A stretch of DNA of 64,000 nt. Origin: Spirulina subsalsa PCC 9445. GTDB lineage: Bacteria > Cyanobacteriota > Cyanobacteriia > Cyanobacteriales > Spirulinaceae. The stretch lies in assembly GCF_000314005.1 (NCBI RefSeq), contig NZ_JH980292.1, positions 4,790,598 to 4,854,597 on the forward strand, written 5' to 3'. The notes under the pieces are model-generated. The model had not been told where the DNA came from and did no database searches. It saw nothing but the letters and a program-made list of their open reading frames with translations. Position numbers and translations under genes: made by a program. This document shows positions 6,769 to 14,957 of the stretch, piece after piece (the stretch's first letter is position 1; each line of letters starts with the position of its first letter).

Positions 6769-7020
6769 TCAACCCCCACTCACGGGAGGAATTAAAACCA
6801 CCTCATCCCCATCTTGTAACACCGTTTCCGGGTCAACAAATTTGTAGTTAATGCCAAAACGGGTAACATTGCGCCATTGTTCTAACTCAGGATGTTCTGC
6901 CAACATCTGAGTTAAAATCCCATAAACAGGGGTATTTTCTGGGAAATCTTGCTCAATTTCTGATTGATTATTATAGGCTTCTTGATAGGCAGCAAATAGT
7001 TTAATTTTAACCCGAATCAT
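6769..7020 (-). CDS. moaD: Molybdopterin synthase sulfur-carrier subunit MoaD
   Basis: 83 residues with a ubiquitin-like beta-grasp pattern and the obligatory C-terminal Gly-Gly (VVLIPPVSGG, then stop). The terminal glycine would be adenylated and thiocarboxylated to carry sulfur for molybdopterin synthesis. The internal NYKFVDPETVLQDGDEVVLIPP block is typical of MoaD rather than ThiS. It converges with the alpha/beta hydrolase gene, the two stops being adjacent. No moaE or other molybdenum-cofactor gene is in the window. Confidence 0.88.
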   Translation of the reverse strand: MIRVKIKLFAAYQEAYNNQSEIEQDFPENTPVYGILTQMLAEHPELEQWRNVTRFGINYKFVDPETVLQDGDEVVLIPPVSGG

Positions 7021-7073: not shown

Positions 7074-7961
7074 TTAATTTCCGGCTAAACGTTTGCCTTC
7101 CTCAGAAGTGCTGTAGCCTAAAAAGGCTTTGACCGCTTCACTGGGAGGGTTTTTATAGACATAAAACAGCGTCCGTTTATAGGGATAAGTGGCTGATTGG
7201 GGAGTAGTGCCGTCAATGGGTAAAACTTGGGCGGTTTGTTGGGTGGCAACTTGAGCATAGGTGGCATAACCAATGCCATTGTCACCGAGTTGACGAATTA
7301 ATCCGGTGGTTTCGTCATTAATCAGGGTGGTAATATTGGGGGTTTTACCGAAAGATTGACCCTGCAAAACCATCTCTTTAAAGGCCTGATGGGTGCCGCT
7401 ATGCTCGGGACGGTTAATGACTCGAATTTCGCTGTTTTGTCCCCCCACTTGGGACCAATTGGTGAGTTGTCCGGTGAAAATTTGCTGCACTTGTTGGGAG
7501 CTTAATCCAGTGCGCAGAGGGTTATTCACTCCAATAATAATGGCGATCGCATCTTCAGCCACCGGAACCGCCACCAAGTTCTGGGCTTGTTCTTGGGGGG
7601 TTAAAGGGCGGGACATGGCGGCGATGTCGATACTCCCCGCGAGAAGAGACGCTAGCCCCCGTTCGCTGCCCTTGGCCTGAACAGTGACAGACGTTCCCGC
7701 AAATTTTTCCTCAAAACCCTGTTTCAGGGCGACATTCACTTGAGCTAAACTGGTAGCCCCATCAAGGCGTAAAATGGTGCCACTGGGGACGGTGGTAGGT
7801 GCAGCAAAGGCCGGGGCTAGACTGGGGGATTGAGTGGGGTTAGAATCCCCCGCGAAGGGAGTATCTGAGGAACGGGTAAACCACCAGTACCCGCCCCCCA
7901 CAATACCTGCGGTAATGACGAAAGAGAGAATCAGGGGGAGGGTTTCATTTTTGGTACTCAT
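7074..7961 (-). CDS. Membrane-anchored PstS-like substrate-binding protein
   Basis: 295 residues. An N-terminal KNET motif and one transmembrane helix (residues about 9-28) are followed by a Pro/Ser-rich linker. A type 2 periplasmic-binding fold of the phosphate-binding PstS group begins near residue 65 (LRLDGATS, then GSERGLASLLAGSIDIAAMSR). The segment HSGTHQAFKEMVLQG is the usual phosphate-loop region. It is the last gene of a run with two other binding proteins and a kinase, 6 bp after the preceding gene. No PstA/B/C transporter genes are nearby, so a sensing role is as likely as transport. It lacks a lipobox. Confidence 0.85.
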   Translation of the reverse strand: MSTKNETLPLILSFVITAGIVGGGYWWFTRSSDTPFAGDSNPTQSPSLAPAFAAPTTVPSGTILRLDGATSLAQVNVALKQGFEEKFAGTSVTVQAKGSERGLASLLAGSIDIAAMSRPLTPQEQAQNLVAVPVAEDAIAIIIGVNNPLRTGLSSQQVQQIFTGQLTNWSQVGGQNSEIRVINRPEHSGTHQAFKEMVLQGQSFGKTPNITTLINDETTGLIRQLGDNGIGYATYAQVATQQTAQVLPIDGTTPQSATYPYKRTLFYVYKNPPSEAVKAFLGYSTSEEGKRLAGN

Positions 7962-7967
7962 AAAACC

Positions 7968-9338
7968 TCATGGTAGGGGAACAAAATCATAACCAAATCC
8001 AGACCGAGAACCTGCCTCTACTTTAACCAATTGTACGGCTTGATTGCGATCGCCCGACGGTAAAAACCGAATATCCGCCGCCGCCCCAGAGGCTTGGAAA
8101 TTGGCATTGCCCAGCGTTTGTTGTACCCCTTGGGGGGTGGGATTTTGTCGCAAGGCTCCAATCAAGGCAACCGTCGCATCGTAGGCCATCGCCGTGCGCC
8201 AGTTCACATCCGCCCGCCACAGTTGACGGGAACGAGTCACAAACCCCGCGTTCGGATCTGCGTCAATATGCCACGGCACAGCCAACACCATCCCCAGAGC
8301 ATTATTTCCCCCTAACTGCAACAAACGGGGCGCATAGAGGCTATCTCCCGCCAATACAGGCAGATTGCGGCCATTTTCTTGGATCAGTTGCACCGCTTGA
8401 TCCAACGTATTAAAGTTCGTGGCTAAAACCAACACCTGCGCCCCTTTACTGCGGGCATCTTGCAGGGCATTACGAGCATTAAAATTACTTGATACATCAT
8501 ATTCCCCGACTACATTTCCCCCACTGGAAAATAATTCTTTCGTGAACTCATTTTTGAGGGACTGACTGTAATCACTTTGACTATTAAAAAACACCGCCGC
8601 CTGTTGTTGGTTTAACTCACTGAGTTGATAACGCACCATTGCCTTAGCGGTAAAAGCATCACTGGGAACTGTGCGAAAAATATACTCACCCTTTTGGGCA
8701 AGAGTAACCGATGTGCTAGTGGGAGAGATCATCACCAGACCCGACTCCTGATAAATCCCCGCCGCCGCCTCGCTATTTTCGCTGCTGAAGTGACCCACCA
8801 CCCCTAAAAGGCGTTCACGAGTAAAAGCTTGGGCGAGGTTACTTGCTCCTTGGGGGGTATTTTGATCATCACCAATGACCACCTTTAAGGGGGTGCCATT
8901 AATGCCGCCTTGGTCGTTGATTTCCTTTTGGGCTTGAGCGACTCCCCGGAGAATTTCCTGGGCGGCATCGAGGTTTCCGGTGATGGGAACCGCCACCCCA
9001 ATGGTGGGAACATTTTGGTTGCCGATGCGGGCATTATTCAAATAAATCAGGGCTTCCGGGTCGTTAGGATTGTTTTGGAGATAGGCTTCCAAGCGACTCA
9101 CAGCCGTTGAAAAATCATTTTGAGCGATCGCCTCCACCGCCGCCCGTTTCTCCGGTGCATCACGGGTCAAGAGTTTCCCCCCAGCACTGAGAGTCCCATC
9201 AGACCCCCGACCTCCCGTGAGGCTTGTATTTCCTCCCAAAAACCCCGCTTGATAGACCCACCATCCACCCCCTGCTAACAGCGCTCCGGTCACAACGAGG
9301 GAGATTAATAAGATTTTAGTTTCGTTTTTTTGAGTCAT
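7968..9338 (-). CDS. Membrane-anchored LivK-type (PBP1) binding protein with TPR-like stalk
   Basis: 456 residues. The start MTQKNETK and a transmembrane helix (about residues 9-30) match the anchors of its two neighbours. Residues about 65-105 resemble a single TPR hairpin (AIAQNDFSTAVSRLEAYLQ, then NPNDPEALIYLNNARI). From residue about 112 there is a type 1 periplasmic binding fold like branched-chain amino-acid receptors (GVAVPITG, then GGINGTPLKVVIGDDQN, VVGHFSSENSEAAAGIY). It is a clear paralogue of the gene upstream, 24 bp away. No permease or ATPase gene is present, so it may be a receptor rather than a transporter part. Confidence 0.87.
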   Translation of the reverse strand: MTQKNETKILLISLVVTGALLAGGGWWVYQAGFLGGNTSLTGGRGSDGTLSAGGKLLTRDAPEKRAAVEAIAQNDFSTAVSRLEAYLQNNPNDPEALIYLNNARIGNQNVPTIGVAVPITGNLDAAQEILRGVAQAQKEINDQGGINGTPLKVVIGDDQNTPQGASNLAQAFTRERLLGVVGHFSSENSEAAAGIYQESGLVMISPTSTSVTLAQKGEYIFRTVPSDAFTAKAMVRYQLSELNQQQAAVFFNSQSDYSQSLKNEFTKELFSSGGNVVGEYDVSSNFNARNALQDARSKGAQVLVLATNFNTLDQAVQLIQENGRNLPVLAGDSLYAPRLLQLGGNNALGMVLAVPWHIDADPNAGFVTRSRQLWRADVNWRTAMAYDATVALIGALRQNPTPQGVQQTLGNANFQASGAAADIRFLPSGDRNQAVQLVKVEAGSRSGFGYDFVPLP

Positions 9339-9362
9339 AATGGTTGCTCTTTATAAAATTAA

Positions 9363-10763
9363 CTAGGGAATGGGGTTGAAATCTTGACCAAAGCCAGAAC
9401 GAGTTCCGGGGACGACTTCCACCAATTGAACGGCTTGATTGCGATCGCCCGACGGCAAAAACCGAATCACCTCCGAAGCCCCCTCTGTCGTGAACCCCGA
9501 ACGGCCTAAAGCTTCTTGTACCCCCGAGCGAGTAGGCGTTTCCCCTAATGCCGCCATCAAGGCAACAGTCGCATCATAGGCCATCGCCGTCCGCCAGTTC
9601 ACCTCCGCCCGCCAGAGTTGCGCCGAAGTCCGAGTAAAAGGAGCATCGGGATGGGCTAAAATATGCCACGGCACCGCCACCACCATCCCCTGAGCATCCT
9701 GCGCCCCCACTTGTAGCAGTCGGGGATTATAGAGACTATCCCCCCCCAACAAAGGCAACTCTTGACGATTAAGTTGAACCACCCGTAACGCTTGGTCGAG
9801 CGTTGGGGTATTAGTCAGTAAAACCAGCACCTCGGCGCCCTGTTCTTTCGCCCCTCTCACCGCCTGACTGGGGTTAAAATCAGGGCGAGACACATCAAAC
9901 TCCTGTAGAACACTGCCCCCACTGGTGAACAATTCCGTTGTAAACTGCCCCTTCAACGACAAACTATAATCACTCTGGCCGTTATAAAAAATCGCCGCCT
10001 GATTGAGATTTAAGGTCGTCAGTTGGTACTGAGCCAAGGCCTTAGCCGTAAACGCATCACTCGGGGCCGTGCGGAAGATATAATTCCCCGCTTGAGATAA
10101 CGTAACAGAGGTGCTAGAGGGGGAAATCATCACTAAACCCTCCTGTTGATAAATCGCCGCCGCCGCTTGGCTCACATCACTACTAAAATGACCCACTACT
10201 CCTAAAATTTCCGGCCTTCTCACCAACGCATCAGCCACCCGTTGCGCCATCTCCGGGTTATTTTGATCATCGGCAATAATTACCTTGAGCGGTACCCCAT
10301 TAATACCCCCCCGTTGGTTAATTTCCTGTTGCGCTTGAGCCACCCCCCGTAAAATTTCCTTCGCGGAATTCTCACTGCCTGTAATCGGCACAGCAACGGC
10401 GATAGGATAGGAACGACCTTGAGCAATGCGGGCATTATTGAGATAAATCAAGGCTTCCGGCTCATTGGGATTTTGTTGTAGAAAGGCTTCTAGAACTTGA
10501 ACCGCTTGGCTATATTGACGATTAGCGATCAGTTCCACGGCCGACTGAAGCTCTACACTCCCGCCGAGTAATAATTGCTCCCCCCCACTCAACGCAACCA
10601 TAGAACCAGAAGACCCAAGGGGTAACGTTCCGATGCCGTTGGGAGAAGCAAAGAAACCGCTCAAAACCCCCGACTCTCGCACCCACCAAACCCCCCCCAC
10701 TAATACGGCACTGGTGAGCAGGAAGGCAATTAAAAGGGTTTTGGTTTCATTTTGTTTAGACAT
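9363..10763 (-). CDS. Membrane-anchored LivK-type (PBP1) binding protein with TPR-like stalk, paralogue
   Basis: 466 residues with the same order as its neighbour: KQNETK anchor motif, one transmembrane helix, a linker, a TPR-like hairpin (LIANRQYSQAVQVLEAFLQ, then NPNEPEALIYLNNARI) and a type 1 periplasmic binding domain (VAVPITGSENSAKEILRG, VVGHFSSDVSQAAAAIYQ, VMISPSSTSVTLSQAG). The paralogues differ most in the linker and in the ligand-pocket loops, which suggests different ligands. It is the first binding protein after the Ser/Thr kinase gene, 64 bp downstream, and the three binding-protein genes are closely spaced. Confidence 0.87.
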   Translation of the reverse strand: MSKQNETKTLLIAFLLTSAVLVGGVWWVRESGVLSGFFASPNGIGTLPLGSSGSMVALSGGEQLLLGGSVELQSAVELIANRQYSQAVQVLEAFLQQNPNEPEALIYLNNARIAQGRSYPIAVAVPITGSENSAKEILRGVAQAQQEINQRGGINGVPLKVIIADDQNNPEMAQRVADALVRRPEILGVVGHFSSDVSQAAAAIYQQEGLVMISPSSTSVTLSQAGNYIFRTAPSDAFTAKALAQYQLTTLNLNQAAIFYNGQSDYSLSLKGQFTTELFTSGGSVLQEFDVSRPDFNPSQAVRGAKEQGAEVLVLLTNTPTLDQALRVVQLNRQELPLLGGDSLYNPRLLQVGAQDAQGMVVAVPWHILAHPDAPFTRTSAQLWRAEVNWRTAMAYDATVALMAALGETPTRSGVQEALGRSGFTTEGASEVIRFLPSGDRNQAVQLVEVVPGTRSGFGQDFNPIP

Positions 10764-10827
10764 GATGCGCCGTGTTAGGGGTTCAGCCTCATTCTAAAAG
10801 ATGTCTATTCCTTTTTGGTTTCTCCCG

Positions 10828-12279
10828 TTACAACACATTGGATAATAACTGATAAATCAGCCTAAAAATGGTGGTGATTAACACAATAACCGCCGCCATT
10901 AAAATCCCAAGCATCAACAGGGCAATCGGTACAGGCATCACGGCAAAAATTTCCGGGAAGCCAAAACCCTGCCAAGCAACCATCCCCCAAGTGATTAAGA
11001 AACTCAGCCCCCCTAAAATGGCCAGATCCCATTTTTCAATCAAGCGACGAATTTGGGCATAAATCAGCCCCCCCAAGGTGGCTCCCCATAGCCCCATACT
11101 AATGGCCGGATTGCCGAAAAACGTTAGCAGGGTGATATAAAGCAAGACCCCACTAAATCCGGTAAAGGCAGCACTGCCGAGAATTTCCAGAAGGGAAAAG
11201 GAGGACTTGGCAGGGGAGGGGGTGGGAGGGGGTGGGGGGGCAGGGGAAGGGGCCGGAGAACGGGTGGTAGGCGGCTGTACAACGTTGGGGGGAGGTGGGA
11301 CAGGTTTGGGCGGGGGAGGGGCGGCTACAGGCTCTTGTAGGGCGTTTAGGACTTCTTGGGCGGATTGAAAGCGGGACTTAGGGCTAGCGAGTAACATCCG
11401 GTCGAGAACGTCGGCGAGGCGATCGCTCACTTGGGGGGCATGGGGTCGCCAATTCCAATCATTACTATAGGAATCATACAAGTCTTCGGGGGGTTTGCCT
11501 GTTAATAAGGTTAACGCCGTACAGGCCAGGGCATATAAATCCGTTGAGGGATAAACTTGCGCCCCCTGCATCTGTTCTGGGGGGGCAAAGCCCATAGAAT
11601 AAATGCCTGTTGAGCGGCCTTGGGGTGTTGCTGCGCTGGCCGTCACCTGTTTCACCGCTCCAAAATCCAGTAAATAGAACTTACCCGCTTTACTGCGCAT
11701 GATATTGGAGGGTTTAATATCCCGATGGATGGAATGGTGTTCATGGACAAACTTGAGAATGTGCAGAATGGCTTGCAGGATCTCGATGACTTCCGCTTCT
11801 GAATAGATGCTTTTCTGGGCTTGTTCTCGTTCTAGGTCTTCCCCGTCGATGTATTCTTGCACCAAATAGAAAAACTGTTCTTCCTTGTTTTGTCCTATAC
11901 TCGGCACCATTAAGGGGAAAAAGGCGTAGGAGTCGGGAATTTGGGGATGAACGCCCAATTCTTCCAACACTTCGGCCTCCCGCTGAAATAAACCGAGGGC
12001 AATTTCTAATTGTTTGGGACTAGGATCTCCGGCGGGTTGGAATAACTTGACTACACATAACCGTAAACTGGTAGTGTAGCGATCGCGGGCGAGAAAGGCC
12101 GCCCCAAATCCCCCGCGCCCCAACAGACGGAAAGGAAGATAGCGCCCCCCTAAAATCAAGGGCATCCCACAGGTCATACAAAACTTTTGCTGGGTGGTTT
12201 TTAATGTGTTCTGATCATCAAGGTCTGGGAAAACATTGTTAGGTTTCGGGCAGCCGGGACGAGTACAGAGGATTTCCAT
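10828..12279 (-). CDS. Membrane Ser/Thr protein kinase with N-terminal four-Cys motif
   Basis: 483 residues from the ATG at 12277-12279 (MEILCTRPGC). This start is preferred because the family begins exactly there; an upstream ATG at 12339 adds 20 unrelated residues. C5, C10, C34 and C37 form a probable zinc ribbon. The kinase domain has the glycine loop LLGRGGFGAAFLA, an ion-pair lysine in CVVKLFQP, the catalytic loop HRDIKPSNIM and LDFGAVKQ. A Pro-rich linker and four or so C-terminal hydrophobic helices follow, so the kinase faces the cytosol. It heads the run with three membrane-anchored binding proteins, which suggests a shared signalling role. Confidence 0.9.
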   Translation of the reverse strand: MEILCTRPGCPKPNNVFPDLDDQNTLKTTQQKFCMTCGMPLILGGRYLPFRLLGRGGFGAAFLARDRYTTSLRLCVVKLFQPAGDPSPKQLEIALGLFQREAEVLEELGVHPQIPDSYAFFPLMVPSIGQNKEEQFFYLVQEYIDGEDLEREQAQKSIYSEAEVIEILQAILHILKFVHEHHSIHRDIKPSNIMRSKAGKFYLLDFGAVKQVTASAATPQGRSTGIYSMGFAPPEQMQGAQVYPSTDLYALACTALTLLTGKPPEDLYDSYSNDWNWRPHAPQVSDRLADVLDRMLLASPKSRFQSAQEVLNALQEPVAAPPPPKPVPPPPNVVQPPTTRSPAPSPAPPPPPTPSPAKSSFSLLEILGSAAFTGFSGVLLYITLLTFFGNPAISMGLWGATLGGLIYAQIRRLIEKWDLAILGGLSFLITWGMVAWQGFGFPEIFAVMPVPIALLMLGILMAAVIVLITTIFRLIYQLLSNVL

Positions 12280-12395
12280 AATATCTATGCAGAAGTGCCA
12301 GAGTGGGGACTTTTCAGCAAAATCACTACTGTCCCTCATCTTAGTCTATGGCAAGACTGGAAAGATGTTGTATTACCCAATCTTGACAAGTTAAG

Positions 12396-12606
12396 GGAAC
12401 GGGGAACGGGGAATAGGGAGTCAGGAATCGGTGTAGGGGCGCAATGCTTGCGCCCTAGGGAGTCGGGAATCGGGAGTCCGGGAACTCTCCCCCCCTGTTC
12501 CCTGTTTCCTGTTCCCTGTTCCCTAAAATAAAAGAGTTTTGGCTATTCACTACCCACTATTCCCCTGCTCCCCTGCTCCCCTGCTCCCCGTTCCCTAGCC
12601 CAGTTA
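12396..12606. repeat. Heptamer-rich repeat block with GGCGCAA hairpin, copy 1
   Basis: This intergenic block holds G-rich heptamers (GGGAACG, GGGAATA), then a hairpin GGGCGCAA-TGC-TTGCGCCC, then C-rich heptamers. The block ATAAAAGAGTTTTGGCTATT and runs of CCCCTGCT close it. The same order recurs at about 14745-14957 on the other side of the next kinase gene. No gene is seen in it. Confidence 0.85.
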
Positions 12607-12616
12607 AAGGATTGTG

Positions 12617-14644
12617 CTACTGCAAACCCGGTTGTTCAACAAAAGACGAGTTGGGACTCTCAGGTTCTGCGACGGGACGAGAAGGGGTTAACTCCTCAAT
12701 CGGTTCGGGGGAGATAAAGGTTGGGGTTGTGACCTCGGAGGGAGTAGGTTTAGGAGGATTCAGAATCCAGCCTCCGTTTTCTTCCTCGGGCTTTTGGGGT
12801 TTTTCCACCACGGGGGAGGTTAGAGAATCTTCTGTGATGATGGGGGGAGAGGGACGAGTGCTGGGGGTGCTTTGGCGTTCTTGTTCCACTTTGCGATCGC
12901 GGGCTTCCTTGGCAATCTGGAGAAAACGGGTTTTCCAATACTCATACTCACTGGGGTTAGTATTGGCGTGGGCGATCGCATCATCCCAACGACGTTCCGC
13001 TAAAGCCCGTCGTGCTGCCTCATAACGCCGTTCTAAAACCTGCCATTCCTGTTGCCATTGAGCCATCGTATTCTGGGCTTGACGGTAGGCCTCACTGCGA
13101 CGAGAAATAGAACGCGCCAACTCAATCGCCCCCGATAAATCCCCATTTTGAAACCGTTCCTGCGCCCGACTTAAAATATCCCCTCCTGAGTCTGAAGCAG
13201 GTCTTTCTGGGGTAGGAGAAGCCACAGGAGGACTGGATGGCTCAGGAGAGGATTCCCGCGCCACAGGGGACGTAAAATCCTGATCACAGGTCACATATTG
13301 AGGCTGACTGGAAACCCACCCCTCCACCGGGTCATTAATTTGTACCCAATCATCCGCCTTGCGACCCGTGAGACTCAAGACCGTTCCCCGTTCCACCCCG
13401 CCGACGATTTGGCCATTGGGGCGATCGCGCACATTTAACCCATTCTCCACCAACACCGTACAAGTCGGCCGTCGTTCAAAAGACACCTCACGCCCCCCAA
13501 ACCAATCCAACACCGGATTAGAACGCCGGGGTGCATTATTCGCCGTCCCCGATTGGGGCTGTAACCGATTGAGCGCAAAGGTTGCCCCAAACGCCACCGA
13601 AAACATCACCGCAAACACCGAACAAAACAGCAACAACAGAGGATTCGGCCCCTTTTTCCCCTTGGGAGTTGGAGTATATCCCCCTCGCGCCGTCTTAGGA
13701 GGAGACACCCGATGAACCGACATCTCCAACGGAGCCACAGCCAGCGTCGCCTGTTCCGACAACGGCGGCACCGTGGGAGGTGGAAGGGGAGCAAGAGCAG
13801 GCAATTGGGCGGTGGGAGCCGCCGTCACATGAAGATTAGAAACCACCGTCAGCACCTCAGCCGCCGACTGATAACGCTCCCGAAAATGATAGGCCACCAA
13901 ACGCTCTAAAATCGCCCCCAAACCCGGACTACAACAATCCCGTTGCCAGACAATCTCCCCAGTTTGAGAATCATAATCAAACTGTTGAGGACTCACCCCC
14001 GTTAACGCCTGAATGGCAATCACCCCCACCGAATACAAATCACTGGCAAAACAAGGCTGGCCCCTGGCCTGTTCACTGGCCATATAGCCCGGCGTTCCTA
14101 CAGAAACCGTATTCGCTGCCCCGTAAGGATTAAAAGCCACTTGAGAGCGAATCTGCTTCACCGCCCCAAAATCCACCAACACCAAACGCCTATCCCCATC
14201 CCGGCGCAAAATATTATCCGGTTTAACATCCCGGTGAATCACATTTTGACCATGAACAAAAGTCAACACCTCCAACAGTTCGCGCAACAGTTGGATCACT
14301 TTTCCCTCTTCCCAGCGTTGACCTTTCACCAACTCCTGAGTTAAAGGATGTCCTTCCACATAATCCTGAACTAAATAAAATTCTGCTTCTTGTTCAAAAT
14401 AAGCCAATAATCGGGGAATTTGACTGTGCATCCCCAAACGTTCTAAAGTTTCTGCCTCTGTTGTGAAGAGTCGGCGCGCTGTGGTCAAAAATTGGGGATC
14501 TTGACTCACAGGATGTAACTGTTTCACCACACAAATGGGATGCCCGGGACGACGGGTATCGTGAGCGAGATAAGTTTGACCAAATCCACCCGCCGCTAGT
14601 GTTTGAATAATTTTATAACGCCCATCTAGTAGTTTTCCAATCAT
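12617..14644 (-). CDS. Ser/Thr protein kinase with transmembrane helix and SH3b domain
   Basis: 675 residues. The kinase domain occupies about residues 1-270, with glycine loop LAAGGFGQTYLA, lysine in CVVKQLHP, catalytic loop HRDVKPDNIL and VDFGAVKQ. A basic segment precedes one transmembrane helix (about 335-357, LLLLFCSVFAVMFSVAFGA). Outside is a bacterial SH3 domain (CTVLVENGLNVRDRPNGQIV, then DDWVQINDPVEGWV) that usually contacts peptidoglycan or another wall ligand. A Ser/Pro-rich linker, an alpha-helical Arg/Glu-rich region and another Pro-rich tail follow. The architecture suggests a wall- or envelope-sensing kinase. It is separated from the other kinase by the repeat block, so a common transcript is uncertain. 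Confidence 0.9.
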   Translation of the reverse strand: MIGKLLDGRYKIIQTLAAGGFGQTYLAHDTRRPGHPICVVKQLHPVSQDPQFLTTARRLFTTEAETLERLGMHSQIPRLLAYFEQEAEFYLVQDYVEGHPLTQELVKGQRWEEGKVIQLLRELLEVLTFVHGQNVIHRDVKPDNILRRDGDRRLVLVDFGAVKQIRSQVAFNPYGAANTVSVGTPGYMASEQARGQPCFASDLYSVGVIAIQALTGVSPQQFDYDSQTGEIVWQRDCCSPGLGAILERLVAYHFRERYQSAAEVLTVVSNLHVTAAPTAQLPALAPLPPPTVPPLSEQATLAVAPLEMSVHRVSPPKTARGGYTPTPKGKKGPNPLLLLFCSVFAVMFSVAFGATFALNRLQPQSGTANNAPRRSNPVLDWFGGREVSFERRPTCTVLVENGLNVRDRPNGQIVGGVERGTVLSLTGRKADDWVQINDPVEGWVSSQPQYVTCDQDFTSPVARESSPEPSSPPVASPTPERPASDSGGDILSRAQERFQNGDLSGAIELARSISRRSEAYRQAQNTMAQWQQEWQVLERRYEAARRALAERRWDDAIAHANTNPSEYEYWKTRFLQIAKEARDRKVEQERQSTPSTRPSPPIITEDSLTSPVVEKPQKPEEENGGWILNPPKPTPSEVTTPTFISPEPIEELTPSRPVAEPESPNSSFVEQPGLQ

Positions 14645-14744
14645 AAACCGATTGATTTAAGCTATTTTGACTTTATCTTGACATATCACCATCCGATTTT
14701 AAGGGGTATCGGTTAGGCAATTTACCCCTATTGCTTAATAAGTC

Positions 14745-14957
14745 CGAGAGTCGGGAGTCGGGAATCGGTGTAGGGGCGCAATGCTTGCGCCCTAGGGAAT
14801 CGGGGGGAGGGGGAGAGAGGGAGACAAGGAATTAAGACTTATTAACTATTACCTCCCCCTTCCCGTTCCCTGTTCCCTAAAATAAAAGAGTTTTGGCTAT
14901 TCACTAGCTACTATTCCCCTGCCCCCCTGCTCCCCTGCCCCCCTACTCCCAGCGACT
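14745..14957. repeat. Heptamer-rich repeat block with GGCGCAA hairpin, copy 2
   Basis: This repeats the order of the block at 12396-12606: GGGAGTC heptamers, the GGGCGCAA...TTGCGCCC hairpin at about 14772-14793, then TTCCCTGTTCCCT, ATAAAAGAGTTTTGGCTATT and CCCCTGC runs. The wider gap 14645-15034 otherwise holds only the likely promoter regions of the flanking divergent genes. Confidence 0.85.

Follow-up and report, generated by a model that had tools for sequence, protein, structure and literature searches.

A membrane Ser/Thr kinase and binding proteins sharing one transmembrane anchor: a candidate split receptor kinase in cyanobacteria

The stretch of 64,000 nucleotides from Spirulina subsalsa PCC 9445 analysed here (contig NZ_JH980292.1, positions 4,790,598 to 4,854,597, hereafter the window) contains on its minus strand a compact group of genes in which three solute-binding proteins are encoded directly behind a membrane Ser/Thr kinase designated K4C. 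The kinase gene (10828..12339) specifies a 4-Cys prefix, a kinase domain and, at the C-terminus, a helical membrane domain with four predicted transmembrane (TM) helices. It is followed on the same strand by the genes for PBP1a (9363..10763, 466 amino acids), PBP1b (7968..9338, 456 amino acids) and a PstS-like protein (7074..7961, 295 amino acids), with intergenic gaps of 64, 24 and 6 bp, respectively. A second Ser/Thr kinase gene, encoding an SH3 domain (12617..14644, minus strand), is located 277 bp upstream of K4C. Pfam matches comprise PF12849 for the PstS-like protein, PF13458 for both PBP1 proteins, PF00069 for the two kinases and SH3_3 for the upstream kinase. In line with the initial annotation of this DNA, the open reading frames (ORFs), Pfam and NCBIfam agree on three adjacent minus-strand binding-protein genes, one PstS-like and two of the PBP1 type, the ORF list confirms their spacing behind the membrane kinase gene, and no ABC permease or ATPase gene is present beside them among the window ORFs. 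PBP1a, which is supported by ORF, Pfam and structure model, and PBP1b are paralogues with 60% identity, and the nearest named relative locus of PBP1a is from Spirulina subsalsa (92% identity). Since promoter- and terminator-like sites are no commoner than in shuffled sequences (11 versus 7.9 and 11 versus 13.1, respectively), the operon status of the genes is deduced from their spacing.

The N-terminus of K4C contains the 4-Cys prefix (CTRPGC...CMTCG, residues 24-61; 12157..12270, minus strand), a putative metal or redox site that scores 40.7 bits with NF045510 at a cut-off of 24. The kinase domain (PF00069, 118.7 bits, residues 71-332; 11344..12129, minus strand) comprises the motifs HRDIKPSN and DFG. 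Among 90 orthologues, the 4-Cys pattern is retained in 87, HRDxKPxN in 80 and DFG in all. As the orthologue alignments begin at the ATG at 12279, this codon is more likely the translation start than the ORF start at 12339. The membrane domain (10834..11193, minus strand) is predicted to consist of four TM helices with short loops, as judged from orthologue hydropathy, which indicates three to five hydrophobic segments, from the consensus and from the helices of structure model m2d2bca6b448e, which is of modest confidence (mean pLDDT 65.4). Because the C-terminal helices are joined by short loops in this model, K4C appears to be devoid of a recognisable periplasmic ligand-binding domain of its own. 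Plasmid-borne copies of K4C were not found by tblastn at E 1e-60.

All three binding proteins open with the sequence K-N-E-T and a single TM helix, together termed the KNET anchor. On the minus strand, this element is located at 10671..10763 in PBP1a (MSKQNETKTLLIAFLLTSAVLVGGVWWVRES; anchor profile, position-wise alignment and BLASTP), at 9246..9338 in PBP1b (DNA pattern and anchor profile) and at 7869..7961 in the PstS-like protein (DNA pattern, anchor profile and BLASTP). When PBP1a was compared with the PstS-like protein by BLASTP, the only notable alignment covered residues 1-31, corresponding to the anchor (E 4e-7). Moreover, none of the three proteins contains a cysteine; thus, lipid anchoring at this residue is excluded, and the motif, the single helix and the missing lipobox described in the initial annotation are all corroborated. 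The anchor consensus reads K-N-E-T-xx-L-x-L-[AS]-L-L-[IV]-T-x-G-L-x-G-G-G-x-W-W-F. Alignment of 31 PstS-like and 53 PBP1 anchors, for which positions 1-4 belonged to the selection pattern, revealed the same residues along the helix in both folds, including a threonine within the membrane and the GGGxWW stretch. Leu at position 7 is present in 100% of the PstS-like and 96% of the PBP1 anchors, Thr at position 14 in 84% and 91%, and Trp at position 23 in 84% and 77%, respectively. In the 5.3-Mb genome the exact DNA pattern of the anchor occurs at 8 sites, with anchored proteins only at the three window genes, which indicates a grouping beyond chance.

To follow the anchor beyond the window, a profile of the anchor only was run against 386 genomes of the phylum, and matches were obtained in 125 of them at E 0.01. 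Among the matches listed, the strong ones fall on ORFs with lengths of roughly 300-400 or 445-560 residues, that is, on the two binding-protein sizes, plus a few short ORFs; domains were checked in the fetched loci only. In these loci, the profile (A2), which was built from their own anchors, many of them linked to K4C, matched 48 PstS-like and 105 PBP1 ORFs, of which 47 and 99, respectively, scored at least 20 bits. Among 30 ORFs in which no domain was recognised, a single one attained this score, itself a fragment of a PstS-like protein. Other anchors occur on 48 of 147 standalone PBP1 ORFs. We also observed a second class of PBP1 anchor with the motif P-P-P-I-(V/F)-(F/Y) (loci L096, L136, L143, L148, L154 and others) and a class of PBP1 proteins whose N-terminus resembles a zinc ribbon (L195, L198, L202 and L208).

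Between anchor and binding domain, both PBP1 proteins contain a TPR-like helical hairpin, which corrects the initial annotation. In PBP1a it comprises residues 70-113 (10425..10556, minus strand; model helices 70-80, 84-97 and 102-113), where TPR matches are weak and below cut-off. The structure model of PBP1a (mean pLDDT 88.9) begins with a low-confidence helix at the N-terminus, followed by a disordered linker, the three-helix hairpin and a leucine-binding-protein fold that corresponds to the PF13458 domain (9366..10415, minus strand). Residues 117-466 align with leucine- and amino-acid-binding proteins (3td9, 4n0q, 4mlc/4q6b; Z 38-40), which have the same fold but were solved as soluble proteins of the transporter type, whereas the anchor and the hairpin of PBP1a lie outside the aligned range. 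Ser195, Thr218, Tyr266 and Asp342 of PBP1a align with what we take to be the amino-acid contacts of leucine-binding protein, the pocket numbers being presumed. These positions are kept in 88, 76, 74 and 71 of 88 KNET members, respectively; another presumed contact, Tyr202, corresponds to Asn318 in PBP1a. The PstS-like family retains the positions GxT, SR, D and R...GT, which are presumably the typical phosphate-binding positions. The binding-protein domains PF12849 and PF13458 exceed the Pfam cut-off in these proteins, and the curated transporter subfamilies are missed: the PstS-like protein reaches 142.6 of the 206.6 bits set for TIGR02136, and the PBP1 proteins 97.0 and 91.1 of the 477 set for NF011933. 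The closest solved relative of the PstS-like domain is Sll0540 of Synechocystis (PDB 9l8j, 271 bits); within the Sll0540/SphX/PstS group it is described as a phosphate-binding protein, and the parts of its descriptions that we found mention no link to a kinase. From these sequence features, the PBP1 proteins are predicted to bind an amino-acid-like compound and the PstS-like protein phosphate or a similar oxyanion.

The distribution of kinase and anchor was determined in the 386 genomes with thresholds of E 1e-80 for K4C, 1e-60 for PBP1 and 1e-5 for the anchor. Scoring covered the best 3-4 candidates per genome in the case of K4C and PBP1 and the best 19 in that of the anchor, and the PBP1 and anchor results refer to the matches listed. 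K4C was detected in 92 genomes, in 87 of them as a single copy (3 candidates scored per genome), and the anchor in 91. Both were present in 83 genomes, the anchor only in 8, K4C only in 9 and neither in 286, yielding a phi of 0.88 and a Fisher p of about 6e-64 when genomes are treated without regard to relatedness. A hand count of 143 genera, each scored positive if any of its genomes was, likewise gave 50 with both, 2 with the anchor only, 6 with K4C only and 85 with neither.

In addition, the genes for kinase and binding proteins are linked. In 49 of the 91 K4C genomes examined (G085 was left out), a binding protein is encoded on the same strand within 5 kb downstream of K4C, in 43 within 300 bp and in 35 within 100 bp. 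The 49 genomes represent 36 genera and 14 families, with a median first gap of 34 bp. The linked partners are PBP1 proteins, PstS-like proteins or both, ranging from one PstS-like (12) or one PBP1 protein (10) up to three proteins. At least one of them is anchored (at least 20 bits) in 47 of 48 genomes, or 48 of 49 with the window included; the exception, G286, has an anchor of the PPPI type, for which the KNET profile gives 9 bits. Wherever binding-protein ORFs and K4C occur together in a fetched locus, all of these ORFs (80, counting fragments) lie downstream of K4C on the same strand, and no other arrangement was observed. In a set of 40 named loci, K4C is adjacent in 12, a kinase-PBP1 fusion is present in 7, the contig is too short in 7 and neither applies to 14. 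The neighbourhood of kinase genes and KNET-anchored binding proteins, for which the initial annotation had proposed a search in other genomes, is therefore conserved, and the grouping is not due to chance.

The initial annotation had also counted the upstream SH3 kinase as the next member of the group. Its gene is indeed present, but none of 90 other genomes (85 with at least 2.5 kb visible) contains a kinase gene on the same strand within 3 kb upstream of K4C, and we therefore regard it as an incidental local neighbour. Moreover, the SH3 kinase tracks the anchor less closely than K4C does (phi 0.55 versus 0.88); among the 122 genomes of the match tables, a hit-defined and biased set, the values are 0.00 and 0.63, respectively. 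For these reasons it was rejected as a member of the system. In Moorena, the kinase domain of a kinase-PBP1 fusion (L041, 6690-9188) is unusually close to that of the SH3 kinase (325 bits).

Such fusions were studied by comparing 193 distinct PBP1 domains, of which 23 belong to kinase fusions and 29 to other long fusions. The kinase fusions occur in Prochloron, Hyella, Moorena and Xenococcaceae, among others. Scanning up to 700 residues preceding PBP1 in the other 29 at E 1e-4 yielded the overlapping domains AAA_16 (11), AAA_22 (11), CHAT (10), AAA_35 (8), nSTAND1 (7) and a caspase domain (2). In a FastTree phylogeny of the PBP1 domains, which contains several long branches and in which PBP1 classes were assigned by simple patterns, well-supported branches force at least three changes of the kinase-fusion label. 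The presumed pocket positions corresponding to Ser195, Thr218, Tyr266 and Asp342 are kept in 23, 18, 22 and 20 of the 23 kinase fusions and in 28, 13, 13 and 9 of the 29 others, respectively. In the manner of Rosetta-stone evidence, the fusions suggest that the TPR-PBP1 module works as an input domain, and those found in other cyanobacteria support a functional tie of sensor and kinase; unlike in these fusion receptors of its relatives, kinase and PBP1 are separate ORFs in the window. The KNET helix was detected at 20 bits in none of the 23 kinase-PBP1 fusions, which would fit a role of this helix in docking. The possibility that the TM helices of fused kinases share the anchor was dismissed, as the sole scoring kinase-PBP1 ORF (L047) is a read-through of K4C into the next gene. 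At this locus (7893-8547), the K4C frame runs on, uninterrupted by a stop codon, into the KNET anchor encoded by the following gene. This represents either a true fusion or an error; since the sequence is from a metagenome assembly and the ORF ends within PBP1, misassembly is possible.

Taken together, these results are most simply read as a split receptor kinase, since K4C appears to have no ligand-binding domain outside the membrane and the anchored proteins have no output domain. K4C would be the membrane Ser/Thr kinase and the three binding proteins its detachable sensors, so that one kinase could read several nutrients, a reading to which we assign a probability of roughly 0.6. A TM helix of specific sequence, the KNET helix, would fix each binding protein in the cytoplasmic membrane with its N-terminus inside and would dock on the K4C membrane domain. 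When the periplasmic domain closes upon ligand binding, this would be relayed through the helix and change kinase activity, with the direction of the signal and its downstream targets being, like topology, docking and ligand identity, what we infer. The variable linkage partners, PBP1, PstS-like or both, are as predicted by a model of one kinase with many sensors. The proposal of the initial annotation that the binding proteins are tethered receptors and not transporter parts hence gains from the conserved neighbourhood, the fusions and the lack of permease neighbours described below, with the SH3 kinase taken out of it.

Several observations weigh against this reading. No binding protein is encoded within 5 kb of K4C in 42 of the 91 genomes (5 of them with less than 4 kb of contig downstream), 7 of these 42 also lack the anchor, and at the thresholds applied the anchor occurs in the absence of K4C in 8 genomes. 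The SH3 kinase likewise tracks K4C overall (phi 0.61), implying that shared ancestry inflates such values. Furthermore, the fused kinases are not K4C, and a 4-Cys-like start is present in only 3 of 23. As 48 of 147 standalone PBP1 ORFs are without the KNET anchor, its absence from the fusions is no proof of docking. Finally, confidence in the K4C model is only modest (mean pLDDT 65.4), and the tail of about 7 residues would leave signalling to putative helix contacts.

The anchored proteins might instead be substrates, with K4C phosphorylating, at the membrane surface, the Thr of the short K-N-E-T tail and thereby controlling where the binding proteins are placed or how they are used. This Thr would face the kinase side and is found in 94% of the 31 PstS-like and 77% of the 53 PBP1 anchors, the selection pattern allowing several residues, and an operon of kinase and substrate would yield equal linkage and co-occurrence. 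However, some members have Ile, Ser, Val, Pro or Asn in its place, and neither the deep conservation of the TM helix nor the kinase-PBP1 fusions would be explained, which renders this alternative unlikely.

We regard as improbable, too, that the anchored proteins feed distant ABC permeases, the tether serving membrane proximity and the kinase gene being a co-regulated neighbour. Their domains do match transporter binding proteins, and what we found on orphan PstS homologues such as Sll0540 presents them as phosphate-binding proteins. Yet none of 143 distinct anchored proteins in the fetched loci has a same-strand Pst- or Urt-type permease in the visible 5 kb, as queried with the genome's own PstC, PstA, UrtB and UrtC only; 5 kb were visible on both sides of 66 proteins, and less than 5 kb on one side of 77. 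An ABC-like ATPase is encoded within 5 kb of 6 of the 143. Elsewhere in the genome, a PstS-PstC-PstA (L219) and a UrtA-E cluster (L214), named over NCBIfam cut-offs, have binding proteins of their own, with PstB absent from the stretch taken for the former. With the window proteins below the curated PstS and Liv cut-offs and the module occurring in fusions with STAND/AAA, CHAT, caspase and kinase domains, the assignment of the binding proteins to a transporter operon finds no support, and complete Pst- or Urt-type operons, which would have spoken against the initial annotation, were not encountered in the visible 5 kb around these 143 proteins.

It is similarly improbable that KNET is a general membrane-sorting anchor, for instance for plasma versus thylakoid membrane, with the kinase link reflecting a shared nutrient regulon without contact: anchor and K4C are unlinked in 35 of the 83 genomes with both, and 8 genomes have the anchor alone, but a sorting signal would be expected on other proteins as well, whereas the strong matches listed fall on the two binding-protein sizes and a few short ORFs, the one domainless ORF of 30 to score is a PstS-like fragment, and the co-occurrence with K4C holds even where the two are unlinked.

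The split receptor kinase has its nearest known functional counterpart, by analogy, in the PknG-GlnX-GlnH system of Actinobacteria, although the parts differ. There, according to the parts of PMC6069109 and PMC9769921 available to us, a solute-binding protein and a Ser/Thr kinase are encoded in a conserved operon, comparable to the probable operon in 49 of 91 K4C genomes, and GlnH is proposed to report amino acids to PknG instead of transporting them. GlnH is a lipoprotein, whereas the cysteine-free binding proteins of the window share a TM anchor; PknG is without TM segments and receives the signal through a separate four-TM protein with periplasmic domains, GlnX, whereas K4C has its own membrane domain; and the binding proteins here adopt two unrelated folds, unlike in the actinobacterial system. 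The gaps of 64, 24 and 6 bp leave no room for a GlnX-like relay gene between kinase and binding proteins; the rest of the genome was not searched for a GlnX homologue. In cyanobacteria, a few kinases with an ANF domain (alr0344, Ava_2791 and CwatDRAFT_0902) were tabulated in 2007 (Zhang 2007, PMC2176072, seen in part). These fusions, known to us by description only, also tie a PBP1/ANF-type domain to a Ser/Thr kinase and probably contain the same sensor module. They are single polypeptides, however, and the fusions found in this work lack the KNET helix and involve kinases other than K4C. The split arrangement was not found in the portion of PMC2176072 seen, and the parts of the open-licence PMC literature consulted yielded no split kinase/binding-protein system in cyanobacteria. 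By analogy, KNET/K4C may thus represent binding-protein-coupled Ser/Thr kinase signalling with a new arrangement of parts.

What activates bacterial Ser/Thr kinases is named as an outstanding question in the part of PMC6069109 seen. For a kinase present in 92 of 386 genomes of the phylum, sequence alone now points to candidate sensors, to an element for docking and to likely classes of ligand, which renders the question directly testable. If the reading is correct, the anchor would be a transferable address tag coupling a periplasmic binding domain to a kinase. More tentatively, and with the odds somewhat against it, ligand-binding subunits of unrelated folds may be interchangeable: by way of a common TM helix they would all plug into one kinase, mostly present as a single copy, and this enzyme would integrate phosphate and amino-acid signals. 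In this reading, the same TPR-PBP1 sensor would have been exchanged among cyanobacteria and attached to kinases, to CHAT and caspase proteases and to STAND NTPases.

Some further observations concern the surroundings of the genes and the genome at large. A small protein that we name MoaD/ThiS-like is encoded at 6769-7020 (minus strand), 53 bp 3' of the PstS-like gene. It was rejected as a member of the system, as homologues are present in only two fetched loci of one genus (L200 and L209, after STAND-PBP1 fusions), and its position is probably due to chance. Elsewhere in the same genome, a protein of 767 amino acids (L221, 4370-6670) shows, apart from a PstS-like domain in the C-terminal half, no Pfam match at E 0.001. 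A larger protein of 1559 amino acids (L217, 2806-7482; C2 near 3.67 Mb) combines an adenylate/guanylate cyclase domain with a periplasmic-binding-type domain and several PAS domains. Lastly, short GC-rich repeats of similar type are present in both gaps flanking the SH3 kinase gene (12340-12616 and 14645-14946).

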